DNA of 64,000 bases, taken from assembly GCF_964355755.1 (NCBI RefSeq), contig NC_092673.1:15195001-15259000 (forward strand). Reading direction: 5' to 3'. How positions within the stretch are numbered: position 1 is the first letter of the stretch; each line of letters starts with the position of its first letter. The notes below the pieces were generated by a model. The model did not search any database. It saw only the letters and a list, made by a program, of their open reading frames with translations, and was not told where the DNA came from. The position numbers and the translations under genes are program-made. Below, piece by piece: positions 2,602 through 54,229 of the stretch. The DNA comes from Antedon mediterranea. Lineage: Eukaryota > Echinodermata > Crinoidea > Comatulida > Antedonidae.

Positions 2602-18941
<16,340 letters not shown>

Positions 18942-29879: not shown

Positions 29880-31443
29880 TCTATATATAAATTTACGTAA
29901 GGGCAAAATTCGGTAAATCGCGCCTTACTTCTAGAATTTTTACTCGATGGTATATAAAGTTGGTTCGTACTTTCGGTACTGATTTTAACCACCTGATGTA
30001 ACCCTGTTTACTAATTAAATTAAGTTAGATAATTAGTTATTGACGATTAAAACGAATTTAGGTTCAACGATTTGCCCCAAATAGGGGTGTTTTCCGATCG
30101 TGGTATACACTGTCTAATGGATGTCCATCTTGAAAAATACCCGCCACAAAAATGCGAGGAGGCTTCGCATTTTCCTATCTCCTCCTACGATAATTGTTTT
30201 TAATAGCTGAAAACCGGTTGAACAGTTCGAGTACAGCATCATAATGTTGAAGACAGGCCGATTTTTTTAAAAAAATACTATTTTGATACATTTAATATAC
30301 GTTTTTACAAATGTATTGATTTTTGATGAATGGAACATTCCAAATTATTTGGTTTAACCATACAGGTATAGATTTAGATTTATGGGCCCCCTTGGAGAAT
30401 AAACATAAATAGTATTGCAATGCTGTACAATACTGTTAAGGTATTAACCACTTTTGATCGCAATTTGAATCGCAAATTTCTTACTGTGAGTGTTGGTACT
30501 GTTAGATGTAATATAAAAATATATACAAATAAACTTTATTACTGTGAGTATGGGTAGGCCCTACTGTTAGATTATAAACATATAATATACAAATAAACAT
30601 TCCAAATTATTTGGTTTAACCATAGAGGTATAGATTTAGATTTAGATTTATGGGCCCCCTTGGAGAATAAACATAAATAGTATTCCAATGCTGTACAATA
30701 CTGTTAAGGTATTAACCACTTTTGATCGCAATTTGAATCGCAAATTTCTTACTGTGAGTGTTGGTACTGTTAGATGTAATATAAAAATATATACAAATAA
30801 ACTTTATTACTGTGAGTGTGGGTAGGCCCTACTGTTAGATTATAAACATATAATATACAAATAAATAAACGTTATTACTGACAGTTGCTTCTCAACGTTT
30901 GTATTAATTAATAATTTAAAAATATATAAACGTCGTAGTGGTGTATCGTTACATGTACTTTACTATTTCAATCGACTATGACAGTGAGAGTTTTAACAAA
31001 GTACCGTATTAAATCGTAAATGGTTTACTGTATTTAGTGGTATATTATTTATAGGCCTATAAAACATTAAAAACAATATTTCGTTACTGAGTGGATAAGA
31101 ATATATTTTAAAATGTTTCCTCTTTGTACCTATCTTCTCCCCCCATCCCTCAACCCTTAATGTTACATACAAAACACAAATTGGGTTTGTTTAAATGAGT
31201 CCAAATAAAAAAATTTGACTCATTTTGTTTCTCTCTCGGAAGTAATTCCCAGGGTGCTAATTTTGGTTGACTACATAAATCATCGTGTCTATTTATTCGT
31301 TTCTGTAAACGACAATGTATTATAGTCCTGCAGTACGTACATTTGAAATCTCCATTTTTTTCTCGCTGGAAATACTGTGTATTCGAGAACCATCTGTGGG
31401 CACGACCTAGATGGTACGCGAGCGAAGCGAGCGTGCCATCTAG
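29880..31443 (+). mobile_element. Non-autonomous Helitron, copy 1
   Basis: Begins TCTATATATAAATTTACG directly after A and ends with hairpin CGCGAGCGAAGCGAGCG, then TGCCATCTAG, directly before T. These are the Helitron hallmarks: 5' TC, a 3' hairpin about 10 nt before CTRR, insertion between A and T, no TIR and no target duplication. A second copy in opposite orientation at 52580-54229 has the same ends with the same A/T junctions. There is no Rep/helicase, so it is non-autonomous. This copy has its own ~262-bp internal tandem duplication (30339-30600 and 30601-30868). Confidence 0.9.
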
Positions 31444-37006: not shown

Positions 37007-37617
37007 ACTCTTTAGTAACAAAGTTAAATCAGAAAATTTGCTCCTTAAAAGCAGATAATGGCAACCTCTATTTTCAAAATTTAACTAAGCAGGTATTGAG
37101 TTATTCTACCGATCTGATCTGATGAACAGTTTACACGTGTATGTAAATGTACCACATCCGGCTGACCAAATACAATACAGCAGACTGCAATGTCAGGTAT
37201 TCCATTCTTAAAATGTACAGTAGAATACCTAATATAATGTCATGCTCGAGTATAATTGCACCATAATAAATTTAATTATACTGTTTAATTGTACTGTATA
37301 ATCCCATGGAACTATACTCGGTCACATACGGTAAGAGCTTTTGATATATGACAACCAAAATACGTCATGTAAATACACTATATGCGTACAAGGATATTGA
37401 GACGCGTTTCCTCATTTCCACAGTTTTGATAGTTTCTAGGTCTAGGCTACGACACATTGATGGATCTGACCTAGTTAGGTAGTAGGTCGTCGCAAATCTA
37501 CATCATATGAAGACAACACAGCCATTACCGCCATAAATACAGGTGAATATCAGACAGCTCTTTGCTGCATTTTGGATGATGGAGTTACCAGCTTCAATCC
37601 TGTGTACACTTTTAATA

Positions 37618-40600
37618 TCAGGTGGTCTTGGATGTTTGTGGTTCTTTTGGTTTTGAAGATCGGGCAAATTGCTGATTTCATTATGAAGGAAAATAACTTT
37701 ATCTATATAGAGTAGAGCATAATAAAATGCATACATTGATAAAACATGAGCACCACAATGAACACAGCAATGGAAGAATTATCATCATCACAAAGGTAAA
37801 ATCAACCTTCTGGCACAAAAACAATGGTAAAATCAGCACAAATACACATCATTGTCACCATCAACACTCATTTACACTATACTAGGACGATAACGATAAA
37901 TAGACAAATATGCATTTTTCATACATAAAACAACAGAAATATAAAACTTCATTCTAGAATTATAGATGAAAATGATATTTTCACACGTCCAATCAAATGA
38001 CGACATGATTAGTAAGAACAATAATATTGTGACACTACAACGATTTTATTGTTTTTATTTATCATAACATCATTTGGTGATGAAATATTATTTTTATTAA
38101 AGACAGCATTAATAATAATAATAATAGTCTGTTCTTATATAGCGCATATAAGCAGGCTCTCAATGCGCTTTACATAAAAAATATAAGCAGGAAATGTTAA
38201 ATTAATGAAAAGCTTGTTGGAAAAGGAAAGTATTGAGTTGAGTCTTAAATATCCTATAGTTCTAGAATGAGTATACATTATTGTCACCAACATAACCATG
38301 AAATCATAGTCACTGTCAGCATACATTATTGTCACCAACATAACCATGAAATCATAGTAACTGTCACTGTAAGCATACATTATTATCACCAACATACCCA
38401 TGAAATCATAGTCACTGTCACTATAAGCATACATTATTGTCACCAACATAACCATGAAATCATAGTCACTGTCACTATAAGTATATATTATTGTCACCAA
38501 CATACCCATGAAATCATAGTCACTGATAAGTATATATTATTGTCACCAACATACCCATGAAATCATAGTCACTGTCACTATAAGTATATATTATTGTTCA
38601 CCAACATAACCATATAATCAAAGTCACTGTAAGCATACATTATTGTCACCAACATAACCATGAAATCAAAGTCACTGTTAGCATACATTATTGTCACCAA
38701 CATAACCTCTAAATCATAGTCACTGTCAGCATTTATTATTGTCACCAACATAACCATAAAATCATAGTCAGTCACCACAAGCATACACTATTGTCACCAA
38801 CATAACCTCTAAATCATAGTCACTGTCAGCATTTATTATTGTCACCAACATAACCATAAAATAATAGTCACTGTCACCACAAGCATACACTATTGTCACC
38901 AACATAACCATGAAATCATAGTCACTGTTAGCATACATTATTGTCACTAACATAACCTTAAAATCATAGTCACTGTCACTATAAGTATACATTATTGTCA
39001 CCAACAAAACCATACAATCAAAGTCACTATAAGCATATATTATTGTCACCAACATAACCATAAAATCATAGGCACTTTCACCACATGCATACATTATTGT
39101 CACCAACATAATCTTTAAGTCATAGTCACTATCACTGTAAGCATACATTATTGTCACCAACATAACCTCTAAATCATAGTCACTGTCAGCATTTATTATT
39201 GTCACCAACATAACCTCTAAATCATAGTCACTGTCAGCATTTATTATTGTCACCAACATAACCATAAAATCATAGTCAGTCACCACAAGCATACACTATT
39301 GTCACCAACATAACCTCTAAATCATAGTCACTGTCAGCATTTATTATTGTCACCAACATAACCATAAAATCATAGTCACTGTCACATAAACATTGTACTT
39401 ATCTATGTAACAGATTTTATTATTGTCTATGATTGTCTTGTCACCAACCTCACTGTCACCCCATTACCAGCATAATTATTTTATATTAACACTATATCAT
39501 AAACTTATATTGTAATCTGCAATAAAGGATACAACAACAATAGGCTTTCCCAGTAGTTGGTAACCATTTGTGTCCTTAACGGCTTTCTTTGCTGCAAATT
39601 CACTGGGTAGGCTAACAAAGGCCTGACCCTTCATACGACCTTGGGTCATCAATTGAATTGAAAACCTACCAATAAAAACAATTAACATTAATGTGATTGG
39701 AAAACTTTTATACCAGGTTCAATTTATCAAACATGCTTAGCAAAAAAAAATCATTGTTTAAGTTAATGATAAAAAATATAAATAAATGACAAATAAAAAA
39801 AGAACTGGTTTGATAACCTAAACCTCCGTCTACACTCTCAAACTAGTTTGACAAAAACAAGTTTAGTGCGCCCAAATATTGTATTACAGGGAATAATTTC
39901 GCCAGTGTAGCATAGCAAAAAGCTATACAAAACAACCTTTTTGCTACACATTTCTACAATTGTGTAGCAAAAAATACAAAACAAAACTATGTTTCTTGAC
40001 TAAAAAATCAGTTATCATAGCAATTTTGCTAAACAAAATTTTCAAATGAAATTTTTCCCTGTATTAATACAGTATGATATCATCGTGTCCTTATATGGGC
40101 ACATAACATTTTTTGTCATGTTTGATAGTATAGACAGTGCTATAGTCTTTAGTCATTTTTTAGGAAATGTTACTTTACAATATCTAATGTTTTCTGAAAA
40201 CAAATTTGGGTCAACCCAAAGGTAAATTGTTTTATGATAGAAATAATGATGAAAACTTACATATCTTGGTCCATTTTTGAGTCCCAGTCAACATATCGTC
40301 CATATATGAACTTTAAATCTTTTTGTTCACATTGTTTGTTTAGGTTTTTGATATATAAACGTGTAGTTGGTTCTCCTGCATTGTACTTCTTAAAAACTGA
40401 CATACTTTCCATTTCTAAAAACATCAACAAATCATTTATAAATAAATCAAAAATTGTAAAAAGTTAATCATAAATGATTAAATTAATTACATTTTCTCTA
40501 GTCTAGTAAATGTCTAATTTATAAAAAAAAAGAAGTTGTATTCCAGTTTGCATTTGCGTTAAAAAAAAGTTGTTTTTTATTCCAGCTGAAGAATTATAAG

Positions 40601-43600
40601 TATGAAATGCCATGTGTGGCAAAACATTTGTCTTTTCAGGAGAATTAAGTGAATCACTGTCTAGAACTTAGACTACCTTTAATTACCATGTTATTTCATA
40701 GTAATTTACCCATTAATGTACATTACAGTTGCAATTAATGGCCAGATACCTACTTTCTAAATTGTCAGTCTCTTAAACCTTATATTAATTCATTAACTGT
40801 ATGTACTTAAATTATTATTGCAATAATATTGTAAAACTAAGACTCCAAATCTTAAGGTTAAAATAGATTGGTTAAAATCATTTATTGATTTGATATTAGT
40901 CTGATATCTTTCAGAATATATCGAAGAATACTAAAATATAATTATAAGTAAAATTTGTTTTATTTCCATACTCTCTAACAGCAAATACATGACTCGGCAA
41001 TTAATCAATGAACCTCTTTTATTCATCTCAATACACATAACAAAAAAGGAGTCAAATAAATTTAAGTAAGATAAAAGGGACATCCAGGAAACTCCAAAGG
41101 GCTTGTGATAAGAGGCCCACAAAAATAGTTACATTAAGATATTAATAAATAAATAACCCATGCTTTCTAAAACCACTTTGACAGGATTTGAATCATGGAC
41201 TCTGGGAATGTCAGCCATCAAGCCACTACTTATTTATTTAATCAGTGTTTACCTTTGCTTGATATTCTGTTCTTCCTAAGTTCTCTTGAAGAGATAAATT
41301 CTTTCACTTCATTTTCATTGTCATCATCACTTGATTCATTTTCTGAAGGTAATTCTTCTGTTTCTTTTGCTGTGGCTTTCATCACTCCAAAACCCACAGA
41401 TGTTGTAGATTCATCAACATTGGTTGTGACAGCTTCTATAAACAAAAACAATATCAATAATAACACCTCCAGATCCTGTCATTTGATTGAGGGTCACATG
41501 ATAAAAATGATGTTCCCTATTAATTGCTTCACATAGCACAGTGAATTCAGATTTTTACCGGATGAAGGCCTGACAGGGTGTTCCCTTAACGACTGCAAAA
41601 CAACAATGCTTTGCACATGCTCAAGCTAGAGCCCGGTAAATTACTTTTAATATTAGCAAGGATGACTAAAAAGGGCAAAGGTTTACATAGTATGATTTGG
41701 AAAAAGTCATGGTAGAACCCCTATGGGGGCATCTTCTAACCAGACAAAGTGTCCCCTGAAGACGACCGCCCCCCGAATATGGTTAAAACATATATTTCAT
41801 AGGAAAAGTGCTTTCTACATATAGGTGTCCCTAAATATAGGTGTCTCAAAGGATGGATGCTGCTGTAACAACAAAGTCAGATATTAATGCCAGAAAACGA
41901 GATAAATTACAAATAAGAATTATGGGGGAAAAAAGTAATCGGAATAAACTGGAGAACAAACAAAACAAAATTTAGCATTCAAGAATAAAGATGGCCGAAC
42001 TACCGCATAAGATAATGAAGGAATTTGTTAATTTTTACCTGTTTTTTTGGTATGAGCTTCTAGGATATCAGATAAGCTTTGAGGTAGTTTCATTTCTAGC
42101 TTCTTAATAGTAGTAGCTGGTAACTGTTGATCAAATACATCTTGAGGCTTGGCTGTGACAGTAGCCGTCCCTGCTGTTAAGGCCTTTACTAGGCCAGCAG
42201 ATGGTACCTGTAATTTCATTTTCTTAGCTCTAGGAAATCTAGCCTGGGAACGTCTTTTAATCGATGGTTTTACTTTTTCTCTGTTAAAAGAAAATATTTT
42301 ATTATTATACAGTAATTTATTTCATAAATGTTATGTAAAATACATATTTATATAATATTGTCACTATTAGAATAAATCCAAAAGAGACAATCGAAGCATA
42401 TTGATTGAAAGCCCAAAAGTTCTGTGCAGAACTACATTATGTTGTACAGCAAACTGCTTTTATACATCTTTTTATAATTTGAAAAAATGATCAACTCTCT
42501 TACTTCTTCTGTTTATGTTCGCCATCACTCTCCAATTCAGACTCCTCTGTGGAACTTGCTATTTCCATTTCATCTGGTTCAGGAGGTTGCTCAGCTGGGG
42601 CATCAGTTGGAATGGGAGGTGTTTGAGTGACAGGTCCAAAGGGGGCTGGAAGGTTCATCTTGTTCATAAGGTGTAGCACTTGAGTGTAAAACTTGGGAAC
42701 TGATACTAATGCATTGATGATATTTGCCAAGATACCTACGGTAGGCTGGGGATACTTGTAGTATAGTTTTGGGTTTATTGGAAAGTCTAGACTGTAAATA
42801 AGCCAAAATTAAAAAGATATTTCATAAACAATATATAACCCTATAAGAGTCAGCAGTGGCATAATGCAGGGGGCAAAGGCCCCTGGTTTAGCCCTCCAAC
42901 GCAGTGTAGTTGCATTGGGGCTGTTCATGCTCTGGGGCCCCTTAAGCCTTGGGGCCCTGGGTTTAGCCAGTGAGCAGTCATAACAGTTACGCCACTGAGA
43001 GTCAGAGTGGTATACATGTAAAGTAATAATAATAAACCAGTCATTGTTTTTTTTATCAATATGAAAACATTTTAAAGTGTTAATGAATGTTTTTACCCTA
43101 GACCACTACTTGCACTCAGTATCTGCCCTTTCAGTTTTCTAGCTTTTTCCCTGGCAACATCTTCCACATCTTTTTCTTTACTTACATCCTCTCTGTTCTC
43201 ATCATCAGGTTTTCTGTTAAAAAAACAAATTTGTTTTCTTACTATTTTATTTATTTATTCTCATATTTCTTGATACTGGGTGACCTCTTCAAAGACTGGT
43301 CTCCCAGAGTGGCTGCATGTGTCAGTGGATGTGTGTGTACTAGTACACTGGGGTAACCCCTTACACGTCTCGAAAGACAGAGTTTTAGTATAAAAATGTT
43401 TAAAGAAAACGTCAAAGAGGTAAAAAAAAGTTGACAAGGTTAGATGCGCCGATGAACCTAGGCTAAGACTACCTCCTATTGTACTGTACATACCTTTAGC
43501 CTTCTAACATAGATAAATGATTTTGACCTAATGGAAAATCTATAAATGCAAATCTATCCATGATACGGATACATACATACAGTATACGTTTCATGTATAC

Positions 43601-45355
43601 ATGTGTTTGTTTGCCTAAACTCTCTAATTTACTTGAAAAGTTTACTTTTGATTATCAAGTAGAGATCCGGCAGCCATGTCCTTCTGCTGTTGTGTCTTGG
43701 CAAATTCTACAACCAATGTACGTCCCATAACCTTTAGCTGATGTAACCTACTTAACGCCTACAGACAAAAATTTTACAAAATATGTCAGAAATATGGGGT
43801 ACCAACAGCATTATGTACACAAGCGTGGCTTACAGGGATGATGGGTATTCTGAGCCATAAATGATTTTGCATAATTTTTGAAATTTTTGATGTATTGCAG
43901 CTTTTTATTTTTTATTTAGTCAATTGTAGTCTTATGTTCATACTTGTACATTGTTAAATAATATATAGTGTTTTTAAATATTGTAATTATTATTTTTAAT
44001 ATGAAACGTTTTTATATATTTTTGTACAATTTTGTGAAAAGCACTCAAAATATTTTCCTATGTGGACGAAATAAAGTTATCATATCAAATAGAATACCAA
44101 AATACTAATTGTTAATTTCAGTCCTTTATGTTTCTTCTCTTTTTTAACAAGAGGTGGTTGATCATACTACAGTAACTGTTACCAATATCCCCATATTCTT
44201 GCTATCCTCTCAAAATTTTAACCATGGATGGTTGTTATATACAGTATTACTATTTTACATAGGCATACTACAAACATACCTGTAGTACACTTTACATAGG
44301 TTACTCAAATTCACATTGCAAGCTGTTTGTTTACTTCAGAAGATATACTTCATATAATGCAGTAGATAATAAGTACAAATGGTTGTCTACACTATCAAAC
44401 TTTATGTGACAAAAAAAATGTGATGTGCCCACATCACACTTTTTTTTGGTCAAACTAGCTTGATAGTGTAGACAGAGCTTTAGTTCAATCCCATTACAAG
44501 AATATGCAACATTCTTACATTTTCAGCTGACTCTTCATCTTCAAAGGTAGCAAATGCTGTGTGTCTCTGAGAAAAAAAATAACAAATATATTTACAAATT
44601 AAAACAAAAATTTCTATGATTAGAGGTTGGAAAAAACAAATAGGTAAAATATGTGAAAAAGTATTGAAACATGCATATCAAAAAAATACGGGTAATTTAT
44701 TTTAAAAAAACCTTCCATCAATAAATACCCTACATGTAAATTCATGTCAATTGTATGACGCACTATACAACCCATTAGAGAGGTGCATTATTTCTCCAAT
44801 GTGCATCATACCTTATGTATACCATGACGCACCCCTGTGTGACACACATTTTTAATTAGTGACGGACCTTTTAGAGAACAATGACGCACCTACCATGACT
44901 ACTATTTGTTTTCGTTTCATGACAGTTGGTCAATTTTTAAATCTAAAGTTCTTAAAGCTATTTAATTTTGACATTTTTGTATGTTTCATATTGTATTTTT
45001 CTGTGTTTTTACATATATATTATATCTAAATATATATAAATAAGGCATCCTATAATCGGCTATTTTTCGCCGTTGGATGTAGTTGAAATAAAATGACAAA
45101 AAAAAACCAGTGACACACCATTGTTCATTGAGGTGGATGTACCAATTAGGATTTTTGACACACCCCATCATCATTAATTCCGGCTCTCGGGGGAGTGATT
45201 GTTTATTTTAAGATCCTATTTACCAAACATCCTTTGTTAGATAGACACTTGACACCCACTGCTCCAAAGTGCTGCAATAGGCTTTGCTTATCAGCAGTCG
45301 TAAGTTCATCTGGAAGATGTCGCACAAGTAAAACATTCTTTTCTGATCCACCCAT
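37618..45355 (-). CDS. RNPC3: U11/U12 di-snRNP 65K protein (ten coding exons)
   Basis: RNA-binding protein of the minor (U12-dependent) spliceosome. In the family the C-terminal RRM binds the U12 snRNA 3' hairpin and the amino part contacts the U11 59K protein, bridging the di-snRNP. Minus-strand coding exons: 45224-45355, 44519-44566, 43646-43758, 43097-43213, 42504-42791, 42039-42280, 41253-41435, 40261-40414, 39533-39665, 37618-37671. Phases all agree: 1464 nt, 487 aa (human 517). RRM1 (~8-80) has LLVRHLPDEL and RHTAFATF, continuing in exon 3 with GRTLVVEFAK. The middle holds the family hallmark ANIINALVSVPKFYTQVLHL and NKMNLPAPFGPVT, then acidic and lysine-rich linkers. RRM2 (~395-475) has RLYIKNL, GRMKGQAFVSL and GKPIVVQFARSSKPK. 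Reading past exon 9 gives a false end; the true last exon (QFARSSKPKEPQTSKTT, stop) lies 1.86 kb away beyond a U12-type intron. Divergent from HTRA2. Confidence 0.95.
38115..38175. repeat. Dispersed AATAATAAT / GCGCTTTACAT repeat fragment
   Basis: AATAATAATAATAATAG followed by TTATATAGCGCATATAAGCA and AATGCGCTTTACATA is a common invertebrate interspersed-repeat end. A similar tail (TATGTGCGCTGTATAAATC before ATTATTATT) occurs at about 56495-56535. Confidence 0.5.
38262..39390. repeat. ~48-54 bp minisatellite in the RNPC3 U12-type intron
   Basis: About 22 copies of a unit with CATTATTGTCACCAACATAA, CATGAAATCATAGTCACTGTC and a variable CACTATAAG spacer. Higher-order duplication is visible: a block around 38690-38870 recurs around 39155-39390. 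Both strands carry open repetitive frames of up to 174 codons that are artefacts of the period. Confidence 0.95.
39827..40145. mobile_element. MITE family B copy split by a second MITE
   Basis: Left end CCGTCTACACTCTCAAACTA and right end TTTGATAGTATAGACAGTGC match the family B TIR. The middle is interrupted at 39887-40061 by another element. Located in RNPC3 intron 8. Confidence 0.75.
39887..40061. mobile_element. 175-bp hAT-like MITE nested in family B
   Basis: Terminal repeats CAGGGAATAATTTCGCC and (reversed right end) CAGGGAAAAATTTCATTTG, flanked by TATTA on both sides. CAGGG ends are typical of hAT superfamily MITEs. The interior has two GTAGCAAAAA inverted words. Short target match, so the duplication length is uncertain. 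Confidence 0.65.
41166..41236 (-). mobile_element. Possible tRNA-like SINE head
   Basis: On the minus strand AGTGGCTTGATGGCTGACAT resembles a tRNA A box and GATTCAAATCCTG a B box, about 35 bp apart, with TATTTATTTATTA runs on both sides. It does not fold as a complete tRNA. Lies in RNPC3 intron 7, next to exon 7. Confidence 0.4.
42854..42997. mobile_element. 144-bp hAT-like MITE with perfect 8-bp target duplication
   Basis: Ends CAGTGGCATAATGC and GTTACGCCACTG are imperfect inverted repeats, and the element is flanked on both sides by AGAGTCAG (42846-42853 and 42998-43005). An 8-bp duplication is diagnostic of hAT transposition. GC-rich relative to its surroundings. Located in RNPC3 intron 4. 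A related, interrupted copy is at 18383-18713. Confidence 0.9.
43250..43500 (-). mobile_element. SINE body fragment related to the 5337-5705 copy
   Basis: Shares the word CTGGGGTAACCCCTTACACG (compare CCGGGGTAACCCCCTACTAT at 5471) and the TTATTTATT tail orientation with the tRNA-derived SINE in DDX41. The tRNA-like head is not recognisable. It lies in RNPC3 intron 3. Confidence 0.4.
44391..44482. mobile_element. MITE family B, compact copy
   Basis: TTGTCTACACTATCAAACTT and its inverted partner TTGATAGTGTAGACAGAGCT enclose GTGATGTGCCCACATCACAC, so the whole ~92-bp element is nearly one hairpin. Located in RNPC3 intron 2. Confidence 0.88.
44755..45175. repeat. GCGTCA/TGACGCA-rich dispersed repeat
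   Basis: GACGCACTATACAACCC, CATACCTTATGTATACCATG and GACGCACCCCTGTGTGA match, in reverse, sequence at 2990-3260 inside the long family A element. Both are rich in TGACGCA words that resemble CRE/AP-1 half sites; this is most likely element structure. Located in RNPC3 intron 1. Confidence 0.7.
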
Positions 45356-48351: not shown

Positions 48352-50789
48352 ATGGCGCTTTATTTCAAAATGGCAGCCTCCATAATAAGAACGTCTATAA
48401 TCTCATATGTTGGAAGAAAGAGTTTTGTACGTTTATTTGATAATAAAGCGTCACTTTGTATGCGCCAAATGTATAAGAATGTACCTATAAGGACAATTAC
48501 ACAAAAGAAGATGGATGAAAATAGACGAAAATATTGGTTATCGACAGGAACATTTGCAGGCCTGATTGTTGTGCTCGTCTTTGCTAGTCCCTACCTTCCA
48601 GGCTTCATCGAAGCCCCTAGGCATTGGGAACCCAGAAGGGACAAAAAAAGAAGAAACTTACAGCAAAAAGAAGCTGGAATTGAAGTAGACGAAACAATTG
48701 ATGACACCCCTCGTAAACCGCATCCAGGTTTGCGTTTACCCCGAGTGAAAGCTTTGGAGATAAATGAAAACAATAATAATGATGATGAGAAAGGCAAAGG
48801 GTCAAAATCAATTTCAAATCGATTCAATTTTATAGCAAATACAGTAGATCTTGCAGGTCCAGCAGTCGTGTATATAGAAATGCAAGGAAGGTAATGTCAT
48901 TACCAACATTAATAAAACAATTAGTCCCTTAAGAAATATCAATGTAATAACACAATGCAAGCAAGAACTAGGCCTAGTTTAAGAAATAAATTACTGTACG
49001 CCAAATCCCAAATGAAACTTTTCAGGGCTTCCAGTTAAGTAGGGGGAACTCATAAAATTACCAAACATACAGCAGTAATCCACATCTTTTTTTATAGGCA
49101 TCCATTTCACAGAGGTCAAGTTCCGATGTCAAATGGCTCGGGCTTTCTAGTCTCTGATGATGGCTTGATATTGACAAATGCTCACGTTGTTGCCAATGGA
49201 CAGCAAAGTAAGGTTAAAGTTCGACTGAAGGATGGTACAGTTTACGAAGGTAGAGTCATCGCCGTCGATTCTGTTTCTGACCTGGCGACTTTAAAAATTA
49301 ATGTTGTAAGTGAAGAATAATTACAATATCTTTAAATAAATGTTAGTTGTAATTTTATTGCATTTAAAATATATATTCAATTTCATTACAGTTTTCTGTG
49401 TCTTGTGTTTTAGAAAAAAAAAGTTCCAAAATTAAAAATTGGAAAATCATCACTGTTAAGGCCTGGAGAATGGGTTGTTGCTATGGGAAGCCCTTTGTCT
49501 CTTAGCAACACGATAACTGCCGGAATAGTAAGCGCTGTTAGTCGGACAAGCAAAGAACTTGGATTAAACAAAGATATTGACTATATCCAGACTGATGCTG
49601 CAATTACTGTAAGTTGTAAATGTGCACAGTCTTGATATAAATTTATATAGAAAGTAAATATTTGTGGAATATTCAATTCAATATCTTTATTCATCAATAC
49701 AATACACAACAAAAGAAAGAGTAAACAATTTAATGAAGATGCAAGTGACCTCTAAGAAACCCCAGGGGCCTGTTAAAAAGTAACTTTTTTTTTTGATTGA
49801 CAGTATGGTAACTCCGGCGGTCCTCTGGTGAACCTAGATGGTGAGGTAATTGGAATCAATACCATGAAGGTTACCGCTGGTATTTCCTTTGCTATACCAA
49901 TTGATTACGCTTCAGATTTTATTGAAGAAAGCAAGAAAATTGTCAACAGTAGGTTGAAGTAGATGTAGTTCAATTACTTCAGAAATGCTATATTCTATGT
50001 TTCTTTATACAGCAGTAAAGAACTGAACTCAAAAGTGTATTATAGATGTATAACTTGGGATAATACTTTTCCTTCAGAATCGAATTCTTCAAGCTGGTTC
50101 ACTAGTAATAACACTCCAGCCGTCAAGGGATCACAGAAATGTTACTTGGGCATCACTATGCTTTCTTTAACGCAGCAGATAATTTTAGAACTTCAACAAA
50201 GATCTCCAGATTTTCCAGATATTCATCAAGGAGTTCTTGTTTATAGAATTGCATATGGATCACCAGCACACAAGTAAAATACAGTAGTTATTAATCCATG
50301 CAAAGCAATCTAACAACAGGACGCTGAGCTTGCCTTGCCAAGATAGGAACTCGTAACAGTCCTTTGATCTTATGTCTGGCCGCGACAAATACCAACAGTA
50401 CTGTACTATGTACATATTCTCTACGGCGCTCTCCGTCTGTTACGTGTTCTGGAACTGATCGTGTCGCAGCCACAGATAAACCCTTTGATCTCCAGAGCTC
50501 AGCATCCTGTTGTAAGATTGCCTTTCTCCATTGTTGTAACAAATTGTGTTAAATGTATAACTACAGTAGTCAATAACAGTTTAGCTTCTTCTAGATAACG
50601 TAGCCCATTTTTGTTTCTGTTTGTAGAGGTGGTTTACAACCAGGTGATATCATCACTCACATTGACAAGGAACAAATCAAGACGTCAAAAGAAGTGTACA
50701 ATGCTGTAAAGAGTGAAAAACAATTAAAAATCTCTATCATTCGAGGTCAAAAGGTCATGCAGCTGTCAGTAACTCCTGAAAGTATTTGA
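48352..50789 (+). CDS. HTRA2: HtrA-type mitochondrial serine protease (six coding exons)
   Basis: Trimeric serine protease of the mitochondrial intermembrane space, used in protein quality control and, when released, in apoptosis. Coding exons: 48352-48890, 49098-49305, 49414-49608, 49804-49948, 50078-50273, 50627-50789; phases agree, 1446 nt, 481 aa (human 458). The amino end is basic (targeting presequence), then a membrane segment (~63-84) and a charged linker. Protease core: [16 protein letters not shown], catalytic H209 (TNAHVV), D241 (SVSDLATL) and S318 (YGNSGGPL), with [17 protein letters not shown] and [13 protein letters not shown]. The C-terminal PDZ domain (~385-475) has YLGITM, GVLVYRI and [11 protein letters not shown]. 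In-frame ATGs at 48280 and 48370 are alternatives; 48352 or 48370 (MAAS) suits the family best. ASPY at 78-81, at the end of the membrane segment, could be the exposed IAP-binding tetrapeptide after processing, but this is a guess. AATAAA at 50986-50991. Confidence 0.95.
49671..49785. repeat. Dispersed ATTCAATTCAATA repeat in HTRA2 intron 3
   Basis: ATTCAATTCAATATCTTTAT followed by CAATACAATACACAA and ending near CCCCAGGGGCCTG. The beginning resembles 1840-1905. Probably the end of a LINE/SINE; non-coding. Confidence 0.35.
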
Positions 50790-52579: not shown

Positions 52580-54229
52580 CTAGATGGCACGCTCGCTTCG
52601 CTCGCGTACCATCTAGGTCGTGCCCACAGATGGTTCTCGAATACACAGTATTTCCAGCGAGAAAAAAATGGAGATTTCAAATGTACGTACTGCAGGACTA
52701 TAATACATTGTCGTTTACAGAAACGAATAAATATACACAATGATTTATGTAGTCAACCAAAATTAGCACCCTGAGAATTACTTCCGAGAGAGAAACAAAA
52801 TGAGTCAAATTTTTTTATTTGGACTCATTTAAACAAACCCAATTTGTGTTTTGTATGTAACATTAAGGGTTGAGGGATGGGGGAAGAAGATAGGTACAAA
52901 GAGGAAACATTTTAAAATATATTCTTATCCACTCAGTAACGAAATATTGTTTTTAATGTTTTATAGGCCTATAAATAATATACCACTAAATACAGTAAAA
53001 CATTTACGACTTAATACGGTACTTTGTTAAAACTCTCACTGTCATAGTCGATTGAAATAGTAAAGTACATGTAACGATACACCACTACGACGTTTATATA
53101 TTTTTAAATTATTAATTAATACAAACGTTGAGAAGCAACTGTCAGTAATAACTTTTTTTTAAATTTTTTTATTTGGACTCATTTAAACAAACCCAATTTG
53201 TGTTTTGTATGTAACATTAAGGGTTGAGGGATGGGGGAAGAAGATAGGTACAAAGAGGAAACATTTTAAAATATATTCTTATCCACTCAGTAACGAAATA
53301 TTGTTTTTAATGTTTTATAGCCCTATAAATAATATACCACTAAATACAGTAAAACATTTACGATTTAATACGGTACTTTGTTAAAACTCTCACTGTCATA
53401 GTCGATTGAAATAGTAAAGTACATGTAACGATACACCACTACGACGTTTATATATTTTTAAATTATTAATTAATACAAACGTTGAGAAGCAACTGTCAGT
53501 AATAACGTTTATTTATTTGTATATTATATGTTTATAATCTAACAGTAGGGCCTACCCACACTCACAGTAATAAAGTTTATTTGTATATATTTTTATATTA
53601 CATCTAACAGTACCAACACTCACAGTAAGAAATTTGCGATTCAAATTGCGATCAAAAGTGGTTAATACCTTAACAGTATTGTACAGCATAGCAATACTAT
53701 TTATGTTTATTCTCCAAGGGGGCCCATAAATCTAAATCTATACCTGTATGGTTAAACCAAATAATTTGGAATGTTCCATTCATCACAAATCAATACATTT
53801 GTAAAAACGTATATTAAATGTATCAAAATAGTATTTTTTAAAGAAAATCGGCCTGTCTTCAACATTATGATGGTGTACTCTAGCTGTTCAACCGGTTTTC
53901 AGCTATTAAAAACAATTATCGTAGGAGGAGATAGGAAAATGCGAAGCCTCCTCGCATTTTTGTGGCGGGTATTTTTCAAGACGGACATCCATTATACAGT
54001 GTATACCACGGTCGGAAAACACCCCTATTTGGGGCAAATCTTGGAACCTAAATTCGTTTTAACCGTCAATAACTTATTATCTAACTTAATTTAATTAGTA
54101 AACAGGGTTACATCAGGTGGTTAAAATCAGTACCGAAAGTACGAACCAACTTTATATACCATCGAGTAAAAATTATAGAAGTAAGGCACGATTTACCGAA
54201 TTTTGCCCTTACGTAAATTTATATATAGA
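52580..54229 (-). mobile_element. Non-autonomous Helitron, copy 2 (inverted)
   Basis: On the minus strand it begins TCTATATATAAATTTACG after A (54230 complement) and ends with the CGCGAGCGAAGCGAGCG hairpin and TGCCATCTAG before T (52579 complement), the same ends as copy 1. It is longer (1650 against 1564 bp) because of a ~354-bp tandem duplication (about 52808-53160 and 53161-53514) that copy 1 lacks, while copy 1's 262-bp duplication is absent here. Shared sequence is nearly identical, indicating recent activity. Confidence 0.9.

Follow-up and report, generated by a model that had tools for sequence, protein, structure and literature searches.

In vertebrates, expression of the 48K and 65K proteins, encoded by SNRNP48 and RNPC3, is tied to U11/U12 activity (PMC5473595, PMC8329584) through the USSE, a tandem of unused U12-type 5' splice sites that exerts negative feedback and whose anatomy is known from animals and plants (PMC3584512). 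For SRSF10, CENATAC and Drosophila dUrp, the output of a splicing factor is known or proposed to be tied to its own minor intron, where major and minor sites compete or are nested (PMC7244321, PMC8329584, PMC3584512). Mammalian RNPC3 itself has been listed among the genes that contain a minor intron (Olthof 2019, cited in PMC6865273); this is given at the level of the gene, and a literature search returned no text naming which mammalian RNPC3 intron is minor.

The RNPC3 gene analysed here resembles these systems in different respects. With the vertebrate feedback it would share a tie between U11/U12 activity and 48K/65K expression, and a USSE is also present in the 48K gene of this genome; however, where the vertebrate USSE is a tandem of unused sites, RNPC3 has a single U12-type donor of a predicted real intron. 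As in SRSF10, CENATAC and dUrp, splicing-factor output would be tied to a minor intron of the same gene, but no strong competing U2-type donor was noticed here in an unsystematic look. The likeness to mammalian RNPC3 is that of the same gene with a minor intron, at the level of the gene. The putative U12-type intron of RNPC3 would be a further instance of a phenomenon already seen, since mammalian RNPC3 already is a minor-intron gene.

The window, i.e. the whole stretch of 64,000 nucleotides analysed (G000:C4:15195001-15259000), belongs to a 354-Mb genome of 18 contigs. Its minus strand carries RNPC3 in ten coding exons (45355..37618), separated by GT-AG introns throughout and joined in a single open frame of 487 amino acids:

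45224..45355, minus strand: exon 1, coding, with the ATG at 45355 (gene model)
44519..44566, minus strand: exon 2 (gene model)
43646..43758, minus strand: exon 3 (gene model)
43097..43213, minus strand: exon 4 (gene model)
42504..42791, minus strand: exon 5 (gene model)
42039..42280, minus strand: exon 6 (gene model)
41253..41435, minus strand: exon 7 (gene model)
40261..40414, minus strand: exon 8, N-terminal extension and start of RRM2 (gene model, 3egn alignment)
39533..39665, minus strand: exon 9, bulk of RRM2, ending in GKPIVV (gene model, 3egn alignment)
37618..37671, minus strand: exon 10, coding end, QFARSSKPKEPQTSKTT-stop (gene model, 3egn alignment)

Residues 352-481 match RRM2 of human U11/U12-65K (3egn, "RNA-binding protein 40") with an E-value of 4.9e-46, the second-best match being RBM41 (E 2.6e-19), and residues 6-84 match other RRMs. 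This is the architecture of RNPC3/U11-U12-65K, with an N-terminal RRM and a C-terminal RRM preceded by the 65K-specific N-terminal extension. No other strong locus was found when the RRM2 region was used as query against the whole genome. On the basis of this similarity, the gene can be firmly assigned to RNPC3 (U11/U12-65K), as originally predicted. RBM41, the 65K paralogue, was sought in the genome with the aim of learning whether the last RNPC3 intron predates the 65K/RBM41 duplication. The search gave other RRM genes and RNPC3 itself, but no RRM that could convincingly be assigned to RBM41. Beside RNPC3, a frame resembling the mitochondrial serine protease HTRA2/Omi was seen by eye at ~48369-50760 of the window (plus strand), divergent from RNPC3 and with ~3 kb between the starts.

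U12-type GT-AG introns are characterized by an RTATCCTTT donor, by a TTCCTTRAY branch site some 10-20 nt before the AG that is complementary to U12, and by the lack of a pyrimidine tract next to the AG. Searches of the genome with Rfam models identified two U11, one U12 and one U4atac snRNA, and one clear U6atac plus a second weak match. As U11, U12, U4atac and U6atac are all present, the organism is expected to splice U12-type introns. The last coding intron of RNPC3 has the following elements:

37672..39532, minus strand: last coding intron, 1861 nt, phase 0, predicted U12-type GT-AG (gene model, splice-site scores, U12 pairing)
39524..39532, minus strand: putative U12-type 5' splice site GTATCCTTT (best among the 7488 GT sites of the window)
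37684..37694, minus strand: putative U12-type branch-site block ATTTTCCTTCA, with the branch A at 37684 (matrix score, U12 pairing)

The junction of exons 9 and 10 reads GKPIVV and then QFARS, and is established independently of splice-site motifs, because the alignment with human 65K RRM2 (3egn) crosses it without a gap. The donor GTATCCTTT agrees with RTATCCTTT at 9/9 positions, and is unique at such a score among the 7488 GT sites on both strands of the window. With an approximate U12 matrix it scores +16.4 bits (the other eight RNPC3 donors, +2.2 to -19), while its U2 donor score is the lowest of the nine introns (-1.9 versus +2.5 to +7.0); the splice-site matrices are approximate, rounded consensus frequencies, and the snRNA pairing is independent of them. 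The U6atac snRNA contains AAGAAAGGAGAG, the AAAGGA of which complements TCCTTT in the donor. The energy of U11-donor pairing did not discriminate, as 702 of the 7488 GT sites equal the donor in this respect.

At the other end, the acceptor (...TTTTCCTTCATAATGAAATCAG) ends at 37672, and the branch-like TTCCTTCA places its A 12 nt upstream of exon 10. The 3' end of the intron (TTATTTTCCTTCATAATGAAATCAG) has the top branch score among the nine RNPC3 introns by matrix scoring, by which an equally good block occurs 8-20 nt before 1.3% of AGs. The branch site TTTTCCTTCAT departs from TTCCTTRAY at two positions, with C for A/G and T for C after the branch A. Pairing of the branch block with the genome's own U12 snRNA (ATGCCTTAAACTAATGAGTAAGGAAAATAACG) gives -14.3 kcal/mol, compared to -3.0 to -8.9 with the remaining eight introns of RNPC3, and pairing this strong was found in only six of 6357 AG contexts, including this one. 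Finally, three of ten positions at -13..-4 are pyrimidines, versus 6-10 of ten in the other introns; a wider window of -22..-4 does not discriminate.

Taken together, these features make it very probable that the last coding intron of RNPC3 truly belongs to the minor class (U12-type, GT-AG); its splicing would complete RRM2 and create a self-dependent link of positive sign. The original prediction had described the same coordinates and sequences, the 9/9 donor and the branch-like site 12 nt before the AG, and scoring of donor and branch with U12 matrices agrees with it. It had also taken all other traced introns of the window to be U2-type, which holds by score for the eight other RNPC3 introns. 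The other genes of the window were checked solely at the remaining perfect RTATCCTT octamers; two of these stand in surroundings that do not look coding, and another (57335) adjoins an open frame.

Most of the intron is filled by a tandem repeat:

38273..39388, minus strand: 48-bp minisatellite, 22 copies, with AATAAA hexamers and near-miss RTAT(G/A)CTT octamers (TRF)

The repeat had been described as a ~50-bp minisatellite filling most of a 1.86-kb intron; its period was measured as 48, with 80% matches, and it covers 1116 of the 1861 nt (60%). The array matches itself at 84-88%, and elsewhere in the genome only one place matches, at 68%. AATAAA occurs nine times in the intron (2.6 expected, P 0.003), mostly inside the minisatellite, and all RTAT(G/A)CTT octamers of the intron lie within it. 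Both stem from one repeated unit and require no function: the AATAAA enrichment was rejected as a functional signal, being largely one multiplied repeat unit, and the octamers were rejected as U12 donors, as they have no C at +5 and are taken to be a single fortuitous near-match that the repeat has multiplied. The minisatellite most likely represents a passive expansion in a tolerant intron. Near-perfect tandem duplications are also present elsewhere in the window, at 52807-53515 (354 bp, 98%) and 30334-30865 (268 bp, 96%).

RRM2 of 65K is the domain that binds U12 snRNA. In the mechanism that we propose, U11 and U6atac would recognise GTATCCTTT and U12 would recognise the branch site TTTTCCTTCA, upon which splicing by the minor spliceosome would fuse GKPIVV with QFARS and complete the last beta-strand of RRM2. 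Full-length 65K would in this way depend on the machinery that it helps to build, a self-dependence of positive sign. We infer that the minor spliceosome removes this intron in vivo. Retention would lead to a different C-terminus:

39497..39532, minus strand: read-through frame on intron retention, VSFIADYNISL-stop (translation of the retained intron)

After exon 9 the retained form reads ...GKPIVVVSFIADYNISL-stop, gaining 11 residues and losing the last 17 (QFARSSKPKEPQTSKTT). Aligned with human 65K, the retained form diverges between the residues equal to V498 and Q499, three residues short of the site of p.R502X, a human variant with which less of the intron recognition complex forms (PMC3958305; PMC7612377). 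By this parallel, the retained form of 65K should fail at U12 binding, as p.R502X does in human. Such retention may occur and may bear on the 65K level. The claim that splicing of the last intron is needed to complete RRM2 is borne out by the reading frame and the human 65K alignment.

The 3'UTR of RNPC3 contains a single half-site:

37390..37397, minus strand: lone ATATCCTT, 221 nt past the stop (motif scan)

No tandem was found between 45400 and 35000 on the minus strand when pairs within 45 nt with at most one mismatch were sought, a stretch that includes the 2.6 kb past the RNPC3 stop. A genome-wide scan for tandem RTATCCTT returned mostly satellite arrays and, on the minus strand, one match at C1:17369994-17370013; a same-strand match to zf-U11-48K (C1:17371156) lies 1.1 kb upstream of it. 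Around this element, tblastn with a human 48K sequence found the exons of SNRNP48 (locus L013, G000:C1:17366501-17376500, minus strand). The element, ATATCCTTAATGGTATCCTT, occupies the intron that precedes the exon aligned with human IYSSLP, and begins 53 nt after TTTTTTCTTTACAG, a strong 3' splice site. It has the anatomy that defines a USSE, in which U12-type 5' splice sites in tandem closely follow a U2-type 3' splice site. With this canonical USSE, 48K is probably still under negative feedback in this genome. Two consecutive zf-U11-48K (CHHC) fingers at G000:C1:36872864-36873648 (plus strand) have a GTSF1-like arrangement rather than that of 48K. Introns of both RNPC3 and SNRNP48 contain a short dispersed repeat (TCTACACTATCAAACTAGTTTGACAAAAAA-GTGTGATGTG...) that has an inverted-repeat look:

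~44470-44380 and 40150-39850 of the window (minus strand), and ~5870-6010 and 7370 onward of the reverse strand of L013: MITE-like repeat

In CENATAC (CCDC84), a second minor-spliceosome gene, no U12 intron was seen, with neither a perfect U12 donor at an exon end nor a TTCCTTRA branch motif. The gene lies at G000:C8:4684138-4687594 (plus strand), and a lone ATATCCTTA inside it, at C8:4686827, is at no recognisable exon end.

That the major spliceosome instead excises the last RNPC3 intron, using a U2-type donor that is weak or cryptic, would accord with its GT-AG termini and with the possible conversion of minor to major introns, but appears extremely unlikely, given the worst U2 donor score of the nine introns, an AG without an adjoining pyrimidine tract, and a nearest in-frame alternative donor, 3 nt upstream, that would cost one V of the conserved VV. 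The lone ATATCCTT could likewise be read as a USSE half that, like its vertebrate counterpart, controls the RNPC3 3' end, a role at which the original prediction had hinted. It is located in the 3'UTR, with an expectation of only ~0.07 sites of this kind per 1.9 kb; however, as predicted, it is single, and even with one mismatch allowed no second site exists within 45 nt, so that the definition of a USSE does not apply. In addition, no clear pyrimidine tract and AG could be seen upstream by eye, both of which the true USSE of the 48K gene has. A USSE function is highly improbable for this motif, which probably is a chance occurrence.

With the U12-type assignment retained, the question is whether the intron has a regulatory role. 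The possible autoregulatory loop of the original prediction stands in its anatomy, in that 65K would be self-dependent if its last intron is spliced as predicted; the loop itself goes beyond this anatomy, and the dependency is positive, opposite in sign to the negative feedback of the USSE and by itself not homeostatic. A regulatory loop, on its own positive in sign, is possible. It is reasonably likely, however, that the intron has no regulatory role, being an inherited minor intron that was neutrally kept and in which a repeat has grown, its U12-type class unchanged. Minor introns are spread over several hundred mammalian genes, RNPC3 being already among them, the minisatellite hardly occurs outside this locus, and CENATAC, in which neither of the two U12-type motifs was seen, gives no sign of general self-targeting. 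Against such neutrality, loss of the last RRM2 strand is severe in human, implying that retention is not silent, and 48K and 65K are feedback-regulated in vertebrates (PMC8329584). A regulated sensor seems somewhat unlikely: low minor-spliceosome activity would leave the intron in place, yielding a truncated or nuclear-detained 65K mRNA and amplifying the drop, beside the negative USSE feedback on 48K. The retained frame does truncate RRM2, the 48K gene of the same genome has a canonical USSE, and SRSF10 is known to be regulated through its minor intron (PMC7244321), as has been suggested for CENATAC and Drosophila dUrp (PMC8329584, PMC3584512), but a positive loop is unstable unless buffered. 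Very doubtful is a bistable switch, in which the tandem USSE of vertebrate RNPC3 would be replaced here by a slow U12 intron with an AATAAA-rich repeat, giving a kinetic choice between full-length 65K and an early-polyadenylated form truncated in RRM2.

If spliced as predicted, RNPC3 would be a clear non-mammalian case, in a genome that carries the minor snRNAs in full, of a gene for a core component of the minor spliceosome whose last coding junction itself requires minor splicing. Should the intron position be common to mammals, the arrangement would be old, and the positive link beside the negative USSE feedback on 48K would form a testable part of the tuning of minor splicing.
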